This document shows positions 2,299-38,242 of a DNA stretch of 38,242 nucleotides, piece by piece. The DNA comes from Candidatus Faecalibacterium intestinigallinarum. Lineage in GTDB: Bacteria; Bacillota; Clostridia; Oscillospirales; Ruminococcaceae. The notes beneath the pieces were generated by a model. That model had not been told where the DNA came from and searched no databases. It worked only from the letters and a program-made list of their open reading frames with translations. Both the position numbers and the translations under genes were made by a program. The number at the start of each line of letters is the position of its first letter. The first letter of the stretch is position 1. The DNA is taken from contig DXHQ01000008.1 of assembly GCA_019113345.1 (NCBI GenBank), positions 1-38,242 of the forward strand, written 5' to 3'.

Positions 2299-4548
2299 TC
2301 AGAGTAGCGTCGTCTGCTCCGCGATGTCGTCGCCGCGCAGCAGCGCGCCGAGGGCCGGCAGGGTGCGCACCCGGTAGCGGTGCGGGTCGGCCAGGTCGAG
2401 GCCGGCCGCCGGGCGGACCGAGGTGATGGTCTGGTTCTTTTTCAGGGTGACCACCGCCACGCCCTGGCTGTCCCGGGTGGCCTTTTCGGCGATCTGGGCC
2501 GAGCCCACCAGCAGCAGCCGGCCGGCGCTGGTGCGGATGGCCAGCTCCTGCTCTTCGGGCAGGAAGAGCAGGGCGGCCAGCGGCTCCTTGTCGCTGTAGG
2601 CGCGCAGCAGCTTGCGGCGGTTCTGCTTGGTGGCGTAGGAGGCAAGCGGCACCTTGGCGCACTTACCGCTGGCGAAAAAGAAGAGCATCCAGCCGCTGTA
2701 GTCGCTTGTCAGGACCATGGCGATGGGGTTCTCCCCTTCTTCCATCCCCAGGCGGGTGGGCAGATAGACCCCCATCTGGCCCACCTTGCCGTCCTCAAAC
2801 TCGGCCAGGCGGGTCTTGTAGACCTGGTGGCGGTCGGTGAAAAAGAGGGCTTCGAGGTTGTTGCGGGCCTCGGCCTGGACGACGATCTCGTCCCCCTCCT
2901 TCAGCTTGTGGGCGCCGGCCGAGCGCAGGCTCTGGGGGGTGATCTTTTTGAGGTAGCCCTCCCGGGTGAAAAAGACGGTGACGGGATAATCGGGCACCGC
3001 CTCCTCGCCGGCGTCGGCCTCCTCGGCCGGCAGGTCGTAGAGGACCTCGCTGCGGCGGGGCTGGCCGTACTTTTTGGCCACCGCCGTCAGCTCCTGGATG
3101 ATGATCCTGCGGATGCGGGCGGGCTTTGCCAGAATGTCGTTCAGGTCGGCGATCTCGTTTTTCAGCGCCTCGATCTCGCCGGTCCGCTTGAGGATATACT
3201 CCCGGTTCAGATGGCGCAGCCGTATCTCGGCCACATACTCGGCCTGCGCCTCGTCGATGCCGAACCCGATCATCAGGTTGGGGACGACCTCGTCCTCCTC
3301 CTCGGTCTCGCGGATGATGCGGATGGCCTTGTCGATGTCCAGCAGGATGGCGGCCAGGCCCTCCAGCAGGTGCAGCCGCTTTTCCTTGCCGTGCAGGTCG
3401 AACCAGGTGCGGCGGCGGACGCACTCGGTGCGGAAGGCCGTCCACTCCTGCAGAATTTCCCGCACCCCCATCACCCGGGGCTGACCCGAGACGAGGATGT
3501 TAAAATTGCAGCTGAAGCTGTCCTCGAGGGGGGTCAGCTTGAAGAGCTTGGCCATCAGGCGGTCGTGGTCCACCCCGCGCTTGAGATCGAGGGCCAGCTT
3601 GAGGCCGTTCAGGTCGGTCTCGTCCCGCATATCGCTCAGCTCTTTCAGCTTGCCGGCCTTGGCCAGCTCGGCGATCTTGTCCATGATGGCCTCCACCGTG
3701 GTGGTGGGCGGGATCTGGGTGATCTCGATCATATTTTCGCCGGGGACCGAGCGCCACCGGGCCCGCACCTTGACGCTGCCCCGCCCGGTCTCAAAGATCT
3801 CCCGCATCTGGGCCGCGTCGTACAGGATCTGGCCGCCGCCCACAAAGTCGGGGGCGGGCATGGTCGAGCCGATGTCGTGCTGCGGGTCTTTGATGAGGGC
3901 GATGGTGGTGGCGCACAGCTCGGCCAGGTTGAACGAGCAGATGTTGCAGGCCATGCCCACCGCGATGCCCAGGGTGTTGTTGGCCAGGATGGTGGGGAAG
4001 GTCACCGGCAGGAGGGTAGGCTCGGTGGTGGTGCCGTCGTAGTTGGGGACAAAGTCCACCGTCTCCTTGTCGATGTCCCGGAACAGTTCCTCACACACCG
4101 GCTCCAGCCGGGCCTCGGTGTAACGGGCGGCGGCGCAGGACATATCCCGGCTGTAAGCCTTGCCGAAGTTGCCCTTGCTGTCCACATAGGGGACCAGCAG
4201 GCTCTCGTTGCCGCGGCCCATCCGGACCATGGTGTCGTAGATGGCGGCGTCGCCGTGGGGGTTCAGGTGCATGGTGGCGCCCACGATGTTGGCCGACTTG
4301 GTCCGGGCGCCCTTGAGCAGCCCCATCCCGTACATGGTGTACAGCAGCTTGCGGTGGGCGGGCTTGAAGCCGTCGATCTCGGGCAGCGCCCGGCTGACGA
4401 TGACGCTCATGGCGTAGGGCATATAGTTGGTTTCCAGGGTGCGGGTGATGGGGTCCTCCAGGACGCTGCCCGCGTTCAGGATCTCGACCCCCTCCCCCAG
4501 CTGGGGGCGCACCGGCCTGGATGTTTTTTTGCTCTGTTTTTTTGGCAT
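2299..4548 (-). CDS. Type II DNA topoisomerase subunit A (ParC/GyrA-like)
   Basis: 749 aa. This is the DNA-cleaving subunit of a type II topoisomerase that passes one duplex through another, relaxing or decatenating DNA. The winged-helix/tower region contains NYMPYAMSVIVSRALPEIDGFKPAHRKLLY (residues 41-70), the quinolone-region HGDAAIYD (98-105) and the catalytic Tyr143 in AARYTEARL. A C-terminal beta-propeller-like region (about 500-749) is shorter and more diverged than GyrA's, without a clear GyrA-box. The Ser83-equivalent of E. coli GyrA is Ala101, and Asp87's equivalent (Asp105) is present. It lies 54 bases after the B subunit and has no clear Shine-Dalgarno, so expression may rely on translational coupling or another mechanism. 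A topoisomerase IV-like or extra clostridial type II enzyme is more likely than the primary gyrase; this window does not decide it. Confidence 0.9.
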   Translation of the reverse strand: MPKKQSKKTSRPVRPQLGEGVEILNAGSVLEDPITRTLETNYMPYAMSVIVSRALPEIDGFKPAHRKLLYTMYGMGLLKGARTKSANIVGATMHLNPHGDAAIYDTMVRMGRGNESLLVPYVDSKGNFGKAYSRDMSCAAARYTEARLEPVCEELFRDIDKETVDFVPNYDGTTTEPTLLPVTFPTILANNTLGIAVGMACNICSFNLAELCATTIALIKDPQHDIGSTMPAPDFVGGGQILYDAAQMREIFETGRGSVKVRARWRSVPGENMIEITQIPPTTTVEAIMDKIAELAKAGKLKELSDMRDETDLNGLKLALDLKRGVDHDRLMAKLFKLTPLEDSFSCNFNILVSGQPRVMGVREILQEWTAFRTECVRRRTWFDLHGKEKRLHLLEGLAAILLDIDKAIRIIRETEEEDEVVPNLMIGFGIDEAQAEYVAEIRLRHLNREYILKRTGEIEALKNEIADLNDILAKPARIRRIIIQELTAVAKKYGQPRRSEVLYDLPAEEADAGEEAVPDYPVTVFFTREGYLKKITPQSLRSAGAHKLKEGDEIVVQAEARNNLEALFFTDRHQVYKTRLAEFEDGKVGQMGVYLPTRLGMEEGENPIAMVLTSDYSGWMLFFFASGKCAKVPLASYATKQNRRKLLRAYSDKEPLAALLFLPEEQELAIRTSAGRLLLVGSAQIAEKATRDSQGVAVVTLKKNQTITSVRPAAGLDLADPHRYRVRTLPALGALLRGDDIAEQTTLL

Positions 4549-31358: not shown

Positions 31359-32117
31359 ATGGATAGGATTCGGTTTCTGATGTCGGACACGGACGCGAAT
31401 ATCACGCGGCGCTGCCGCGAGGCGCTGGAAAAAGAGGGCGTCGAGGTGACGGTGGTGGACAAGGACGGCACCAAGGTGCTGCAGAAGATGCTGATCGTCC
31501 GGCCCAACGTGGTCCTGCTGGACGCCTTTATGCCGGGGCTGGACGCGCTGACCATCAAGCAGCGCTACGACGCCGCCGGCGAGGGGCGGGCCGCCTTTTT
31601 CGTCACCGGCGCGTTCCAGAGCGAAGAGATGGTCCAGGAGCTGCTGGACGCCGGGTTCTCCTACTATTTTGTCAAGCCGTTTGAAGAGAGCGTGCTGGTG
31701 GGCCGGGTGCTGAAAGCCGCGGCCATGCCGGTGCGGCAGAACACCTACACCACCTCCGACAGCGACGAGATCAACGTCACCGAGATCATGCACCAGCTGG
31801 GCGTGCCGGCCCACATCAAGGGCTACCAGTACCTGCGCGAGGCCATCCTGATGGCGATGAAGAACCCCGACTACATCAACGCCGTCACCAAACGCCTGTA
31901 CCCCGAGATCGCCCAGCGGGACCACGCCACCCCCAGCCGGGTGGAGCGTGCCATCCGCCACGCCATCGAGGTGGCCTGGGACCGGGGCGACGTCGACACC
32001 CTCAACCGCTATTTTGGCTATACCATCCACAACATGCGCGGCAAACCCACCAACTCGGAGTTCATCGCCATGATCGCCGACAAGATGCGCCTGGACAAAA
32101 AGAGGCGGATCGGGTAA
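31359..32117 (+). CDS. spo0A: Spo0A-family response regulator with atypical receiver
   Basis: 252 aa from ATG 31359 after GGGAGG. The DNA-binding domain (about 150-250) is the Spo0A effector domain in full: VPAHIKGYQYLREAI, SRVERAIRHAIEVAWDRGD and KPTNSEFIAMIADKMRL. The receiver is divergent: the acidic pocket is SDTDAN (9-14) rather than the usual ADDN, the phospho-acceptor Asp55 lies in LLDAFMPGLDAL, Thr83 replaces the usual Ser/Thr context and Lys106 is kept. Spo0A switches sporulation and many stationary-phase genes. No spoIVB precedes it, and an integrase island follows directly. The product is likely functional but signal input may differ. Confidence 0.9.
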   Translation: MDRIRFLMSDTDANITRRCREALEKEGVEVTVVDKDGTKVLQKMLIVRPNVVLLDAFMPGLDALTIKQRYDAAGEGRAAFFVTGAFQSEEMVQELLDAGFSYYFVKPFEESVLVGRVLKAAAMPVRQNTYTTSDSDEINVTEIMHQLGVPAHIKGYQYLREAILMAMKNPDYINAVTKRLYPEIAQRDHATPSRVERAIRHAIEVAWDRGDVDTLNRYFGYTIHNMRGKPTNSEFIAMIADKMRLDKKRRIG

Positions 32118-32295: not shown

Positions 32296-33261
32296 ATGCT
32301 GTTGCAGGATGTCGAGATTTTTATAGAACACTGTACGGAAAAAGGTCTGGCCGCTAAAACGATTGCCAGCTATGAGCAGACGCTGCGCCTACTCATTCAG
32401 TATCTGGATGCACAGGGAATTCACCGGATAGATCAGATCACGCACACAGTGATACGAGATTATGTCAGATGCATTCAACAGAGAGGAAAGTACACCGTAG
32501 CTGTCAGCTCATACAGCAGTAACTGTCCAGAACGCCGGAGAGACTACGGAAAGAAAGTATCTCCTACGACCATCAATAATTACTTGAGGAATATGAGTGT
32601 ATTCTTCAACTGGTGTGTGGAAGAAGGTTTGATGCTGCGCTCCCCGATCAAGAGGGGAGACTACCTCAAAGTGGAGAGAAAGCCTCTTGAGTTTGTCTCA
32701 GATGAGGACTTCCGCAGGCTGCTGAAGTGTATGGACATATCCCGCTTCAGCGAGTACAGAGATTCCATTATTGTACAGCTACTGCTGGACACAGGAATGC
32801 GGATCAGCGAATGTCTGCTGATTCATGTGACAGATGTAGATTTGAGAAAGCACTGTATCTACCTGCCTTCTGACCATACGAAAGGCAAGAAGGGAAGATA
32901 TGTATTCTACTCGGACAAGATGGCTTCCATGCTTCAAAGATGGCTGAAGTACAAGGACAGATACAGAGACAGTGATTTTCTGTTCTGCACAAATCAGGGA
33001 AAGCCCGTAGAGGTGTCCAATTTTGAGAAAAATATAACAAAATATGCAAAGCGTGTTGGTCTTGTCAACATTCACCCTCATGTGTTCCGCAATAACTTTG
33101 CTAAGCGCTTCTTGATGAATGGGGGAGATATTTACACGTTAAGCAGACTTTTAGGGCACAGCAGTGTGACTATAACAGAACAGGCATATCTGGACATCAC
33201 ACAGGACGATCTGGCAGAGCTGTACAGGAAACACAGTCCCCTGAAGCACATGACAAAATAA
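32296..33261 (+). CDS. Tyrosine recombinase/integrase
   Basis: 321 aa with AGGAGG 5 bases before ATG. An N-terminal SAM-like core-binding domain (about 1-120) precedes the catalytic domain. Catalytic residues by position: Arg169 (TGMRISE), Lys196 (TKGKKGR), His262 and Arg265 (HPHVFRNNFA), His288 (LLGHSS) and Tyr298 (QAYLDI). Length and simplicity resemble XerD-like integrases of mobile elements. Its AT-rich composition contrasts with spo0A 180 bases upstream. It probably integrates or excises the island; no partner excisionase is seen. Confidence 0.9.
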   Translation: MLLQDVEIFIEHCTEKGLAAKTIASYEQTLRLLIQYLDAQGIHRIDQITHTVIRDYVRCIQQRGKYTVAVSSYSSNCPERRRDYGKKVSPTTINNYLRNMSVFFNWCVEEGLMLRSPIKRGDYLKVERKPLEFVSDEDFRRLLKCMDISRFSEYRDSIIVQLLLDTGMRISECLLIHVTDVDLRKHCIYLPSDHTKGKKGRYVFYSDKMASMLQRWLKYKDRYRDSDFLFCTNQGKPVEVSNFEKNITKYAKRVGLVNIHPHVFRNNFAKRFLMNGGDIYTLSRLLGHSSVTITEQAYLDITQDDLAELYRKHSPLKHMTK

Positions 33262-33314: not shown

Positions 33315-33593
33315 TCAGCGTTCCCTCAACCGGTCTGCTAGTTGTGCAATCAGAGCCACGTCCTTTTCATCCAGCCCGCTTACATTAACAGTCTGGTGAG
33401 GTTCCAGTCCCAGCAGATAGTCAGTAGATACAGAAAACAGCTTTGCCAGCTCTACAAGTAGAGGGGGAGAGGGCATGGATAGCCCTTGTTCCCAGGAATT
33501 GACGCCGTTGCGTGTCATATTCAGCCGCCGGGCCAGTTCAGCCTGTGTCCATCCCCGTGCTTCCCGCAGCGTTTTGATTCGATCAGCAGTCAT
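33315..33593 (-). CDS. XRE-family transcriptional regulator
   Basis: 92 aa from ATG 33593, spaced 6 bases after AGAGGTG. The helix-turn-helix is canonical: RIKTLREARGWTQAELARRL, then MTRNGVNSWEQGLSMPSPPLL, then the typical ending FSVSTDYLLGLEP. The C-terminal tail (SGLDEKDVALIAQLADRL) is likely a small dimerisation segment. A pair of inverted operator-like sites lies just upstream. It is probably the repressor of this island's rightward genes. Confidence 0.9.
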   Translation of the reverse strand: MTADRIKTLREARGWTQAELARRLNMTRNGVNSWEQGLSMPSPPLLVELAKLFSVSTDYLLGLEPHQTVNVSGLDEKDVALIAQLADRLRER

Positions 33594-33607
33594 GTGCAAC
33601 ACCTCTT

Positions 33608-35887: not shown

Positions 35888-36844
35888 ATGATGAAAAAGA
35901 AAATAGTATCGTTACTTATGTGCCTGTTGTTGTGTATAGTGGCTATTGTGCCAATGAGCGCTTCTGCTGTGACACCTGCTGTAGCCGTAATGGACATAGA
36001 TGTCAGTGGAGACGATTATGGTTGGACTGATGTAGATTTTTATTTTAGAAATAATTCTGGGAAAACGATTAAATACATTGATTTTTATGTATCTGCATAT
36101 AACCGTGTTGGAGATCTTATACATGATGAAATAACATTTAACGCTACAAAAAAACTTACAGGTGTAGGCCCAACAGAACCATTTGTTCCACAAAAACTAC
36201 AAGGACAAGTTCACACTAGCCTGAGTAATGGAGATGGAACCCCATTTTCGGAATATCGAGAAGCCGGATATATGATAAATGACGGACAATATCGTTTAGC
36301 TGTATATCTTGACAAATACAACAACTTTTTCACAAAACCAACATTATCGTATGATGCAAATGAATGTGTGTATTTGTCTGATTATGAAATCAACAATATG
36401 ATATATAGCAGCTATATATGCTTTGACGATGTGTTCTATAACGATATGTTAGATAGTGTGACACTTAACAAAATTGTTGTTACATATATGGATGGTTCAC
36501 AACAAACCATTTCGGGTGAAGATGCAACCGTTCTTAGAAATGAACCACTCCAAAATCAGCCATTCCTTCCTACTGTTGCCCGTTATAGTGCTGTGTATAA
36601 TTACGAAGATTATAAAACTCTTAATCCAGATCTCGTAGCGGCTCTTGGCGATAATGAAAAACTCTTATTTGAACATTTCATTAACAACGGTATGAAGGAA
36701 GGCCGTCAGGGTAGCACAGAATTCAATCTGGCAACCTACAAAGCAAACAATCCCGATCTTGTAGCTGCTTTTGGTGATGATAATGTAAAGTACTATGAGC
36801 ACTACATCTCTTCTGGTAAAGCGGAAGGCCGTAAAGCTGTATAA
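35888..36844 (+). CDS. Secreted protein with two C-terminal NPDL...EGR repeats
   Basis: 318 aa; AAGGAGG suits the second ATG at 35891 about as well as the first. A signal peptide covers 1-27 and likely ends at SASA. The middle (about 30-230) is a beta-rich domain I do not recognise by name. Two C-terminal repeats (237-278 and 279-318) share YK-x3-NPDLVAA-x-GD, then EH and a closing EGR. Such repeats are common on clostridial surface proteins and may bind the cell wall. No LPXTG. Probably the island's exported factor. Confidence 0.65.
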   Translation: MMKKKIVSLLMCLLLCIVAIVPMSASAVTPAVAVMDIDVSGDDYGWTDVDFYFRNNSGKTIKYIDFYVSAYNRVGDLIHDEITFNATKKLTGVGPTEPFVPQKLQGQVHTSLSNGDGTPFSEYREAGYMINDGQYRLAVYLDKYNNFFTKPTLSYDANECVYLSDYEINNMIYSSYICFDDVFYNDMLDSVTLNKIVVTYMDGSQQTISGEDATVLRNEPLQNQPFLPTVARYSAVYNYEDYKTLNPDLVAALGDNEKLLFEHFINNGMKEGRQGSTEFNLATYKANNPDLVAAFGDDNVKYYEHYISSGKAEGRKAV

Positions 36845-36970: not shown

Positions 36971-37026
36971 ACAACATCTCCCTTGCCTCTTGTGTCTGGC
37001 CCGCCGTGAGATGTTGTTTTTATTTC
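36971..37026 (+). terminator. Terminator-like hairpin
   Basis: ACAACATCTC (36971-36980) pairs perfectly with GAGATGTTGT (37008-37017), 27-nt loop, then TTTTATTT. No gene immediately precedes it, so it may end a non-coding transcript or be a second terminator. Confidence 0.55.
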
Positions 37027-37335
37027 CAAAGATACAAAACCTGCCTATTGCTCTGTTTCAGCTTCAGATTTCCAGTTCGGAACTGATAAGATTAAGAACT
37101 AATCCCTATTCCTTGGAATTTTGCTGTGAAACTACAATATCTCAGATTTCTATTTCGGAAGTAGAGATTTCAAGCGGAAATGAAGCAGAGTGATTGAAAG
37201 GGGCTTAGAGTTAGGGTAAAGGGCAGTTATCTTTGAAGAATCCCATTTTTCTGCTCCTGTTGTGAGACTCCTGAGATTTTTGAGACTTCCGGCACTCTTT
37301 GGACTTCTGAGACCTCTGATCTCATTTGTAGAAAA

Positions 37336-37366
37336 AATCTGACCCTTTGAAACGCCGGGTCAGATT
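37336..37366. other. 10-bp perfect hairpin
   Basis: AATCTGACCC (37336-37345) and GGGTCAGATT (37357-37366) with an 11-nt loop. Its right arm also joins the weaker ATTCC/GGAAT pairing to 37380. Confidence 0.7.
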
Positions 37367-37391
37367 CCTGTTTTGGGAATTCAATAAGAAA

Positions 37392-37416
37392 GGGGGTCGC
37401 TGAATTGCCGACCCCC
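37392..37416. other. 8-bp GC-rich hairpin
   Basis: GGGGGTCG (37392-37399) and CGACCCCC (37409-37416), 9-nt loop. Confidence 0.7.
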
Positions 37417-37610
37417 TGTGTCAAATCTGGCGCACCCTAGACCCCATCGGGATTCATGAAAGTATGGAAGGGGAGTCAACGCAGTGGACGCCCCTATTAT
37501 TCAAAACGGTGAACGATTTGTTCACCATTGCTCTGGGCCCAATACACAAGTAGCTTGACAGCTCAAAATTGAACTGCCAGATTGTTCCTTGGGGGTCAAA
37601 TTTGATCCTG

Positions 37611-37637
37611 AAGGAGGACGAGATTTCGTCCCCCCTT
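37611..37637. other. Long hairpin with one mismatch
   Basis: AAGGAGGACGA (37611-37621) pairs with TCGTCCCCCCTT (37626-37637), one A-C mismatch and one bulged C, 4-nt loop. Confidence 0.65.
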
Positions 37638-37673
37638 TGGTTTCTCTGCCTTTCGCTCAAAAATGAGCAAGTT

Positions 37674-37699
37674 CACTCGGTCCAAGTTTGGACTGAGTG
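37674..37699. other. 10-bp hairpin, one G-T pair
   Basis: CACTCGGTCC (37674-37683) and GGACTGAGTG (37690-37699) with loop AAGTTT. Confidence 0.7.
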
Positions 37700-37761
37700 C
37701 AGATTTGCGCCCAATAACAGGTATTGGACATTTTTGTCCATAACCTTCAAAGCCGACGATC

Positions 37762-37796
37762 AGCAAGGGGAGGATCAAATTTGATCCCCCTTTGCT
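37762..37796. other. 17-bp hairpin around GGATCAAATTTGATCC
   Basis: The palindrome GGATCAAATTTGATCC (37772-37787) is continued outward by AGCAAGGGG (37762-37770) pairing with CCCTTTGCT (37788-37796), the only faults being one bulged A at 37771 and one G-T pair. The 13-mer TCAAATTTGATCC is also found at 37596-37608. Confidence 0.75.
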
Positions 37797-38024
37797 TTCC
37801 TGATTCCCATCGCCACAAGTGGCGACGCTAAAGAAACTTTGGATTAAAACCTTTTCCCAGCTTGTTGGGGAAAAGCAATTCCCTAAATCTGGGGAGTCCG
37901 CAGGACAGGGAGATTTTTCCCAGTCCGATTTTTCGACCACTTGTGGGGGGAATTCTTGTCTTGTTGTAACAAATGGCAATCCATCCGGCCATTCAGCAGA
38001 AGTGCCGAAACGAAGTGATTTATT

Positions 38025-38052
38025 AAGTAGCCCCCAAAATTGGGGGCTGCTT
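38025..38052. other. 12-bp hairpin
   Basis: AAGTAGCCCCCA (38025-38036) pairs with TGGGGGCTGCTT (38041-38052), one T-G pair, loop AAAT. Confidence 0.7.
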
Positions 38053-38174
38053 CATGTTGGGCTGCAAATTTGAGGCTGAACATTCCGCTTGTCAAAAGGG
38101 GCTGGAAATTTCCGGGTCAGTCCCAAATTTTGTGTAAAGTCCAATGAGTGCAGGAATAGAGCAAAATTTATATG

Positions 38175-38206
38175 TAGGCGGCAGCGGCTTGACCGTCTGC
38201 CGCCTA
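38175..38206. other. 13-bp hairpin at the window's right end
   Basis: TAGGCGGCAG (38175-38184) pairs perfectly with CTGCCGCCTA (38197-38206), and the loop adds CGG/CCG. No T-tract follows. Confidence 0.7.
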
Positions 38207-38242
38207 TGTCTACAACATAACGCCGGTGGGGATGGATGTCAA

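Follow-up and report, generated by a model that had tools for sequence, protein, structure and literature searches.

The window, by which we mean the whole stretch of 38,242 nucleotides analyzed here, is one complete contig (C47); the Faecalibacterium assembly to which it belongs totals 2.2 Mb and has 130 contigs. From ∼32.2 kb onward its G+C content drops from 64% to 34–47%, and this right end of the window is an integrative element adjoining spo0A. As listed in Table 1, the element carries a Xer-like tyrosine recombinase, an HTH regulator and, beyond two cargo genes without a Pfam match, an array of palindromes. The protein encoded by the cargo gene at 35888–36844 carries at its C terminus two repeats matching YKxxNPDLVAAxGDxxxxxxEHxIxxGxxEGR, and this end is kept in Faecalibacterium sp. 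An121 (89% over 37 residues), where the remaining cargo differs. The recombinase belongs to a family that adjoins spo0A: a search for its relatives returned 23 loci, and spo0A lies directly upstream in 17 of the 19 with at least 45% identity (L057–L075), which come from Clostridia and one Ureibacillus. A second 3′ fragment of spo0A is present several kb downstream in two relatives (L058/L047 and L069), and L063, which starts at a contig edge, also has such a fragment. Judged by these arrangements, it looks as if the 3′ end of spo0A is the attachment site; among the matches listed from the open-license PMC literature, none described spo0A as an integration site.

Table 1. Features of the integrative element and units of its palindrome array (positions in the window; empty cells where nothing applies)
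Feature	Position	Strand	Remarks
spo0A	31392–32117		Directly upstream of the element's recombinase
Xer-like tyrosine recombinase of the integrative element	32296–33261	+	Directly behind spo0A
HTH (Cro/CI-type) regulator of the element	33315–33602	−	
IS leader remnant, outside the array	37241–37329	+	86–94% identical to several copies in An121
Palindrome array proper	37330–38113		∼15 palindromes, mostly with 4-nt loops; CA..TG flanking the loop
Unit AATCTGACCC...GGGTCAGATT	37336–37366		Two-sided change of one pair in An121, pairing kept; antirepressor match not found
Unit GGGGGTCG...CGACCCCC	37390–37417		One frame gives KGVAELPTP, resembling the P22_AR_N peptide KGVANLQLP; p 0.04 (test floor)
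Unit TGTGTCAAATCTGGCGCA	37417–37434		An121 version TGCGTCAAATTTGACGCA identical to the P22_AR_N palindrome encoding CVKFDA
Unit with perfect 7-bp stem GGTGAAC/GTTCACC	37505–37529		Not in An121; match not found
Unit CAGCTCAAAATTGAACTG	37559–37576		Weak pRha-like peptide LDSSKLNCQ, p 0.04; DNA match not significant, p 0.63
Unit GGGTCAAATTTGATCC	37586–37615		P22_AR_N-like, 15/16; alone not significant, p 0.14
Unit GGAGGACGAGATTTCGTCCCCC	37613–37634		22/22 in L085, a P22_AR_N antirepressor gene, peptide GGRNLVLP; An121 has its exact reverse complement at this place
Unit CACTCGGTCCAAGTTTGGACTGAGTG	37674–37699		19/22 with pRha gene L340; p 0.02, and p 0.025 after removal of array-found targets
Unit TGGACATTTTTGTCCA	37719–37746		20/20 (37726–37745) within the AntA/KilAC antirepressor gene of phage phiPVL108 and relatives
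Unit GGAGGATCAAATTTGATCCCCC	37762–37796		21/22 with P22_AR_N gene L111
Unit TCGCCACAAGTGGCGA	37808–37827		Match not found
Unit CCTTTTCCCAGCTTGTTGGGGAAAAG	37849–37876		17/22 with the Bro-N/KilAC antirepressor of phage 187, p 0.02; partly circular, the target family having been found through An121
Unit GGACAGGGA...TCCCAGTCC	37903–37926		Window version without match; aligned An121 unit 24/25 with the antirepressor of a Terrisporobacter phage
Unit AGTAGCCCCCAAAATTGGGGGCTGCT	38022–38055		pRha-like, 18/22; not significant, p 0.12
End of an IS256-family element, contig break	∼38114–38242		Overlaps contig C95 by 131 bp

A reading of the sequence without database searches had described a dense, gene-free array of stem-loops at 37023–38242. 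The dense run of differing palindromes is there and contains no gene, the ORFs that span it (127 aa on the minus and 84 aa on the plus strand) not being conserved between the window and An121; its extent, however, is smaller, and the true array occupies 37330–38113. At its left, the segment 37023–37275 folded near chance in sliding folds compared with controls, and the adjacent leader remnant is presumably of the IS66 type. At its right, the assembly stops because the end of an IS256-family element sits there; contig C95 was rejected as a continuation of the window, as it is a different locus carrying the same IS end. Against dinucleotide-shuffled controls the stem-loops held up in number, score, and loop size. 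A strand-symmetric scan of 37330–38120 found 15 hairpins, compared with 7.9 on average and at most 14 in 300 shuffles; the summed hairpin score was 296 versus 126 ± 33 (maximum 236), and 10 hairpins had 4-nt loops versus a shuffle mean of 1.6 (maximum 7). In 150-nt sliding folds, 37651–37800 reached z = −8.2 on the plus and −6.9 on the minus strand. The loop is often AATT, and CA and TG stand beside the 4-nt loop in many hairpins, the stems of which differ. The G-T pairs, which had been taken as a sign of selection on structure, do not bear that interpretation: the mismatches within stems have no strand preference, with 3 G-T and 8 A-C in the window and 6 G-T and 5 A-C in An121.

The homologue of the array lies in the same spo0A-linked integrative element of An121 (L024 7329–7892, minus strand), which is the only relative of the whole array among the 297 family, 31 genus, and 394 order genomes searched, the family and order sets being samples and the other hits being IS sequence or short single-unit matches. 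The two arrays are 72–81% identical and are separated by indels of 1, 1, 2, 2, 6, 7, 14, 16, 18, 21, and 100 nt, the longest of which correspond to whole hairpins. Of the stem pairs, 74 are unchanged, 70 fall in gaps or outside the alignment, and 35 ungapped pairs have changed: 11 on both sides and still paired, 10 on one side and still paired, and 14 broken. Of the 11 pairs changed on both sides, 5 come from a single hairpin whose alignment is perhaps not truly orthologous. One imperfect palindrome (37613–37634; L024 7714–7735) is inverted in place between the two species with all 22 bases retained.

Neither array has an HTH gene directly upstream, and no consensus promoter stands out upstream of either. 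In An121, a hairpin followed by CTTTTT was seen by eye ∼240 bp behind the array, for which the terminator scan gave no entry. No second array was found in the window's own genome, where the only long recurrences were the 131-bp IS end and a 35-bp palindrome matching itself; elsewhere in Faecalibacterium the palindrome GRTCAAATTTGAYC occurs at one place only (G321), within ordinary coding sequence. Plasmid records gave no match to the array region, phage records queried with the whole region gave a single match confined to the IS256 end, and exact IMG/VR scans with two conserved non-palindromic pieces of the array had no hits. Copies of a REP element resemble one another and occur throughout a genome; the array resembles REP/BIME elements in consisting of short palindromes in non-coding DNA, but its units differ from one another, and neither a second array nor many similar copies were found on searching its genome. 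It is likewise unlike an integron attC array, as the integron integrase match (TIGR02249) scored 78 bits against a cut-off of 265.

What the units correspond to emerged from comparison with phage genes, a step beyond the reach of any reader without databases. An order-wide search with the An121 array gave a 26-bp exact match inside an antirepressor gene of the P22_AR_N type in another family (L085) and, in L086, a near match close to genes that by eye look phage-derived. Exact IMG/VR scans with two An121-type units found 8 and 11 loci, of which 6 and 4, respectively, lie in P22_AR_N-type coding sequences, where the unit always follows D-x-V-L-x-x-G; the remainder of the 11 loci comprised 2 in other arrays and 5 elsewhere. 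Among the scan loci outside antirepressor genes are the array-bearing phage contigs L090, L100, and L101, together with the doubtful L093, which was initially counted as an array but dropped from later tests because its other hairpins look unrelated; in an earlier test 1 of its 7 units had reached p ≤ 0.05. That earlier test, made against P22_AR_N targets only, had given 2/12 units at p ≤ 0.05 in the window, 5/9 in An121, 1/11 in L101, 3/11 in L090, and 1/3 in L100.

Compared with 125 target regions, 23 of 53 units from seven arrays matched at p ≤ 0.05 under a stem-pair-shuffle null, which keeps core, composition, and symmetry (window, 5/12; An121, 7/9; L090, 5/11; L101, 2/10 and 1/3; L100, 2/3; L194, 1/5); the other 7 of the 12 window units had no significant DNA match to these regions. 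Because some targets had been found through arrays, the test was repeated with array-found targets and scanned units removed, and 9 of 46 units still matched at p ≤ 0.05 (binomial p 4e-4, Fisher p 1e-3), compared with 0/46 for control regions of the same antirepressor genes. When the units were translated, 11 of 29 reached the test floor of p 0.04 against antirepressor peptides. Among single units of the window, 37762–37796 codes for KGGSNLILP, identical to P22_AR_N peptides at 9 of 9 residues, and its 19-mer has a single exact IMG/VR locus, inside a P22_AR_N-type gene. The match of 37719–37746 to the phiPVL108 gene has a BLAST E-value of 10 and a stem-shuffle p of 0.03, and the An121 counterpart of 37849–37876 shares 18/20 with the phage 187 antirepressor (p 0.01).

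In BLAST searches of phage records, E-values for single units were mostly 0.7–10 and at best (L090) 1e-4 to 3e-4. The window array returned 54 records (40 listed), 31 of them staphylococcal, with an antirepressor label in 14 of the 17 listed staphylococcal records, all at the same 20-nt stretch; the others (15 enterococcal, 5 Vibrio, 2 Aeromonas, and 1 other) were unrelated or unlabeled. Of 37 records returned by the An121 array, 19 were labeled antirepressor, representing two antirepressor loci and two of eight query stretches, and the reversed An121 array returned 1 record, not an antirepressor. The L090 array gave 20 records, 11 labeled antirepressor or Rha, and none of the 7 found with the L101 array carried an antirepressor label. 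Overall, the link between array units and antirepressor palindromes is, as far as sequence comparison goes, well supported, and we hold it with high confidence: so compared, the array is a collection of 20–34-nt palindromic segments that correspond to a palindrome in the antirepressor genes of many phages.

The palindrome is a feature of the antirepressor genes themselves. Among 67 distinct P22_AR_N regions (the best 80 of 135 IMG/VR relatives, 62 of them viewed by eye; the 67 include seven scan loci), 42 contain a palindrome exceeding synonymous-codon shuffles at p ≤ 0.05 and 22 at p ≤ 0.01, with a mean score of 19.6 versus 11.6 in the shuffles. It occupies the codons following D-x-V-L-x-x-G, and the peptide varies with the stem (GCVKFDAGV, GCLKFEAGV, GGSNLILPT, GVANLQLPT, GAGNFPLPT, and KKLPLKFEG). 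Similarly, 33 of 47 distinct pRha proteins, taken from the best 80 of 175 relatives, have a palindrome above synonymous-codon shuffles (17.7 versus 11.0), compared with 8 of 41 for a downstream control region of the pRha genes (11.3 versus 10.3). A significant palindrome is absent from 25 of the 67 P22_AR_N and 14 of the 47 pRha genes. In named phages, the AntA, Bro-N/KilAC, and pRha genes matching array units also contain the palindrome, which lies 129–191 nt past the start codon in seven annotated antirepressor genes. By the codon-shuffle comparison, the protein sequence does not account for the strength of the palindrome in the 42 P22_AR_N and 33 pRha genes, and the stem differs between phages. 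A variable palindrome kept within the coding sequence of several antirepressor families would be new, as would arrays that collect such palindromes; searches of the open-license PMC literature (excluding preprints) turned up a description of neither.

Several phage contigs place such units next to a regulator. In four of them, an array or a single hairpin lies just behind a Cro/CI-type HTH gene on the same strand. At two loci of L101, an HTH gene is followed by an array and then an integrase, all on one strand, and L100 has the order HTH gene, array, serine recombinase, with the array directly behind the HTH gene. In Geobacillus phage PK3.5 (L194), the array follows an XRE gene and covers most of a short predicted coding sequence. 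Ruminococcus phage phiRg519T2 (L193) has a single intergenic hairpin (1867–1896) behind its HTH gene; translated, the hairpin gives the pRha peptide NESNFALVD, and the corresponding peptide in the pRha of the phage itself is NESNFGLVD. The L090 array, by eye, is placed behind a structural gene. Within it (2735–3330), antirepressor-matching palindromes alternate with imperfect segments of ∼28–32 nt, GTTCCC...GGGAGATG or GTTCCC...GCGGGAGATG, which resemble degenerate CRISPR repeats.

Antirepressors inactivate CI-type repressors, whereupon lytic growth starts, and the antisense RNAs known to target ant have their site near the translation start. We tentatively favor the reading that the array is a multi-target antisense library silencing antirepressor mRNAs in the manner of the c4 RNA of phage P1. 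The array would be transcribed, each self-complementary unit would pair with the corresponding palindrome of an antirepressor mRNA, first by loop-loop contact and then as a duplex, and the pairing would block or destabilize that mRNA, leaving an incoming or induced phage with no protein to inactivate repressors. A palindrome has the same sequence on either strand, so the orientation of a unit should not matter, in keeping with the inversion of 37613–37634. A unit behind an HTH gene would share a transcript with a repressor-type gene and so be made when the silencing of antirepressors is timely. Antisense control of antirepressor mRNAs has precedents (PMC12197685): c4 (P1 and P7) and sar (P22) are small stem-loop RNAs from the immunity region that pair with ant mRNA, block its translation, and fix immunity specificity, with c4 setting heteroimmunity, and 24B_1 is proposed to act on the antirepressor gene of phage Phi24B. 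The array resembles c4 in that its units match antirepressor palindromes above stem-shuffled controls, a complementarity in sequence from which pairing is predicted. Unlike c4, which is one RNA with one target and pairs around the ribosome binding site, the array is a row of many units of different specificity that match several gene families, and it has no Rfam C4 match. The location of the matched site, 43–64 codons inside the gene and not at the ant translation start, counts against the antisense reading.

If the antisense library is real, it would amount to immunity at the RNA level between phages and mobile elements, keeping a sequence memory but using no Cas protein. Still more tentatively, we propose that mobile elements and prophages may carry heritable, Cas-free libraries of RNA palindromes silencing the antirepressors of many phage families, in which case the coding palindrome would be an immunity tag whose stems diversify in an arms race. 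This would also explain the high variation of antirepressor proteins at the palindrome site, where selection would act on the RNA and not on the protein. The idea is directly testable because each unit names its target.

We consider it unlikely that the array is instead a decoy at the DNA level, in which the palindromes bind a protein and so titrate it, be it an antirepressor, a host factor, or a phage repressor. The palindromes resemble typical binding sites in having a constant AT-rich core, the stems have no strand preference, and the phage arrays lie near regulators, all of which would suit a decoy. Yet stem sequences change freely with complementarity preserved, something that sequence-specific binding of double-stranded DNA does not need. 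An operator bound by a repressor would also be expected to have further copies close to the lysogeny genes, but a second copy of the locus's own palindrome was found in 0 of 54 antirepressor loci (flanks of up to 1.5 kb; 16-mer with at most 3 mismatches), a test of limited reach and no background, as shuffled 16-mers also gave 0. A repressor-operator reading is likewise unsupported by these 54 loci.

It is similarly improbable that the array is a graveyard of functionless palindromic antirepressor fragments gathered by recombination or template switching, although IS remnants are dense in the element, the two species differ in the orientation of one unit, and many units have no match at all. 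Against such an origin, the matches fall only at the short palindromic site, in several gene families, with none in the control regions; units are identical to an antirepressor gene at 22 of 22 positions in both species, within arrays that are otherwise ∼72% identical; and similar arrays recur behind HTH genes of unrelated phages.

One large structured RNA, which the sequence-only reading had listed with mobile-element origin and arrayed palindromic repeats as the main options, appears very unlikely, strong local folding and the compensation of some pairs between the window and An121 notwithstanding. At gathering score, Rfam matched nothing in the window except three tRNAs (no C4 and no large structured RNA such as ROOL or GOLLD), and each of the 19 matches of a permissive search, C4 again not being among them, fell far under its family's cut-off. 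We do not take the array for one RNA fold because the stem mismatches have no strand preference, with no excess of G-U, and because unit 37613–37634 is inverted in place in An121. The gaps between the species, of up to 100 and 21 nt, are of whole-hairpin length, and the antirepressor matches weaken this option further. Of the original options, arrayed palindromic repeats of mobile-element origin are what the integrative element and the phage-gene matches bear out. Least probable is a CRISPR-like array whose units serve host Cas proteins as spacers against phages: although CRISPR arrays and phage mini-arrays are also ordered rows of short segments matching other phages' genes, and although the L090 array has repeat-like GTTCCC segments between palindromes and one unit with ∼30 nt common to an antirepressor coding sequence, L090 is the only array with such spacers, no repeat family was found between the units of the window or, by eye, of An121, and the units are palindromic and limited in their targets to one site of one functional gene class.

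Further points against the proposed antisense library are the window units with no significant match, the position of the window and An121 arrays away from an HTH gene or an evident promoter, and the distribution of possible target genes. Of 396 family genomes, one had a P22_AR_N-type gene, and none of the Faecalibacterium genomes among them did; pRha genes were found in 0 of 31 Faecalibacterium genomes. The best-matching targets are therefore not sampled prophages of the genus. They may belong to lytic or unsampled phages, or the array may derive from another host, the latter being possible because the integrase family spans Clostridia and one Bacilli genome. Bro-N genes are present in 16 and AntA genes in 2 of the 31 Faecalibacterium genomes, but 30 of 32 such genes tested lack the palindrome, and no targets were found among the antirepressors of the genus in the genomes searched. 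In two Faecalibacterium Bro-N genes, presumably DinD-like, the coding sequence includes a large palindrome (p 0.0 for each when compared with synonymous shuffles): a perfect one of 30 bp, GACCATTTTCGGGGCGCCCCGAAAATGGTC, and GATCATTTTGCCGACGTTGGCAAAACGATC, in L372 (genome G309) and L386 (genome G300), respectively.
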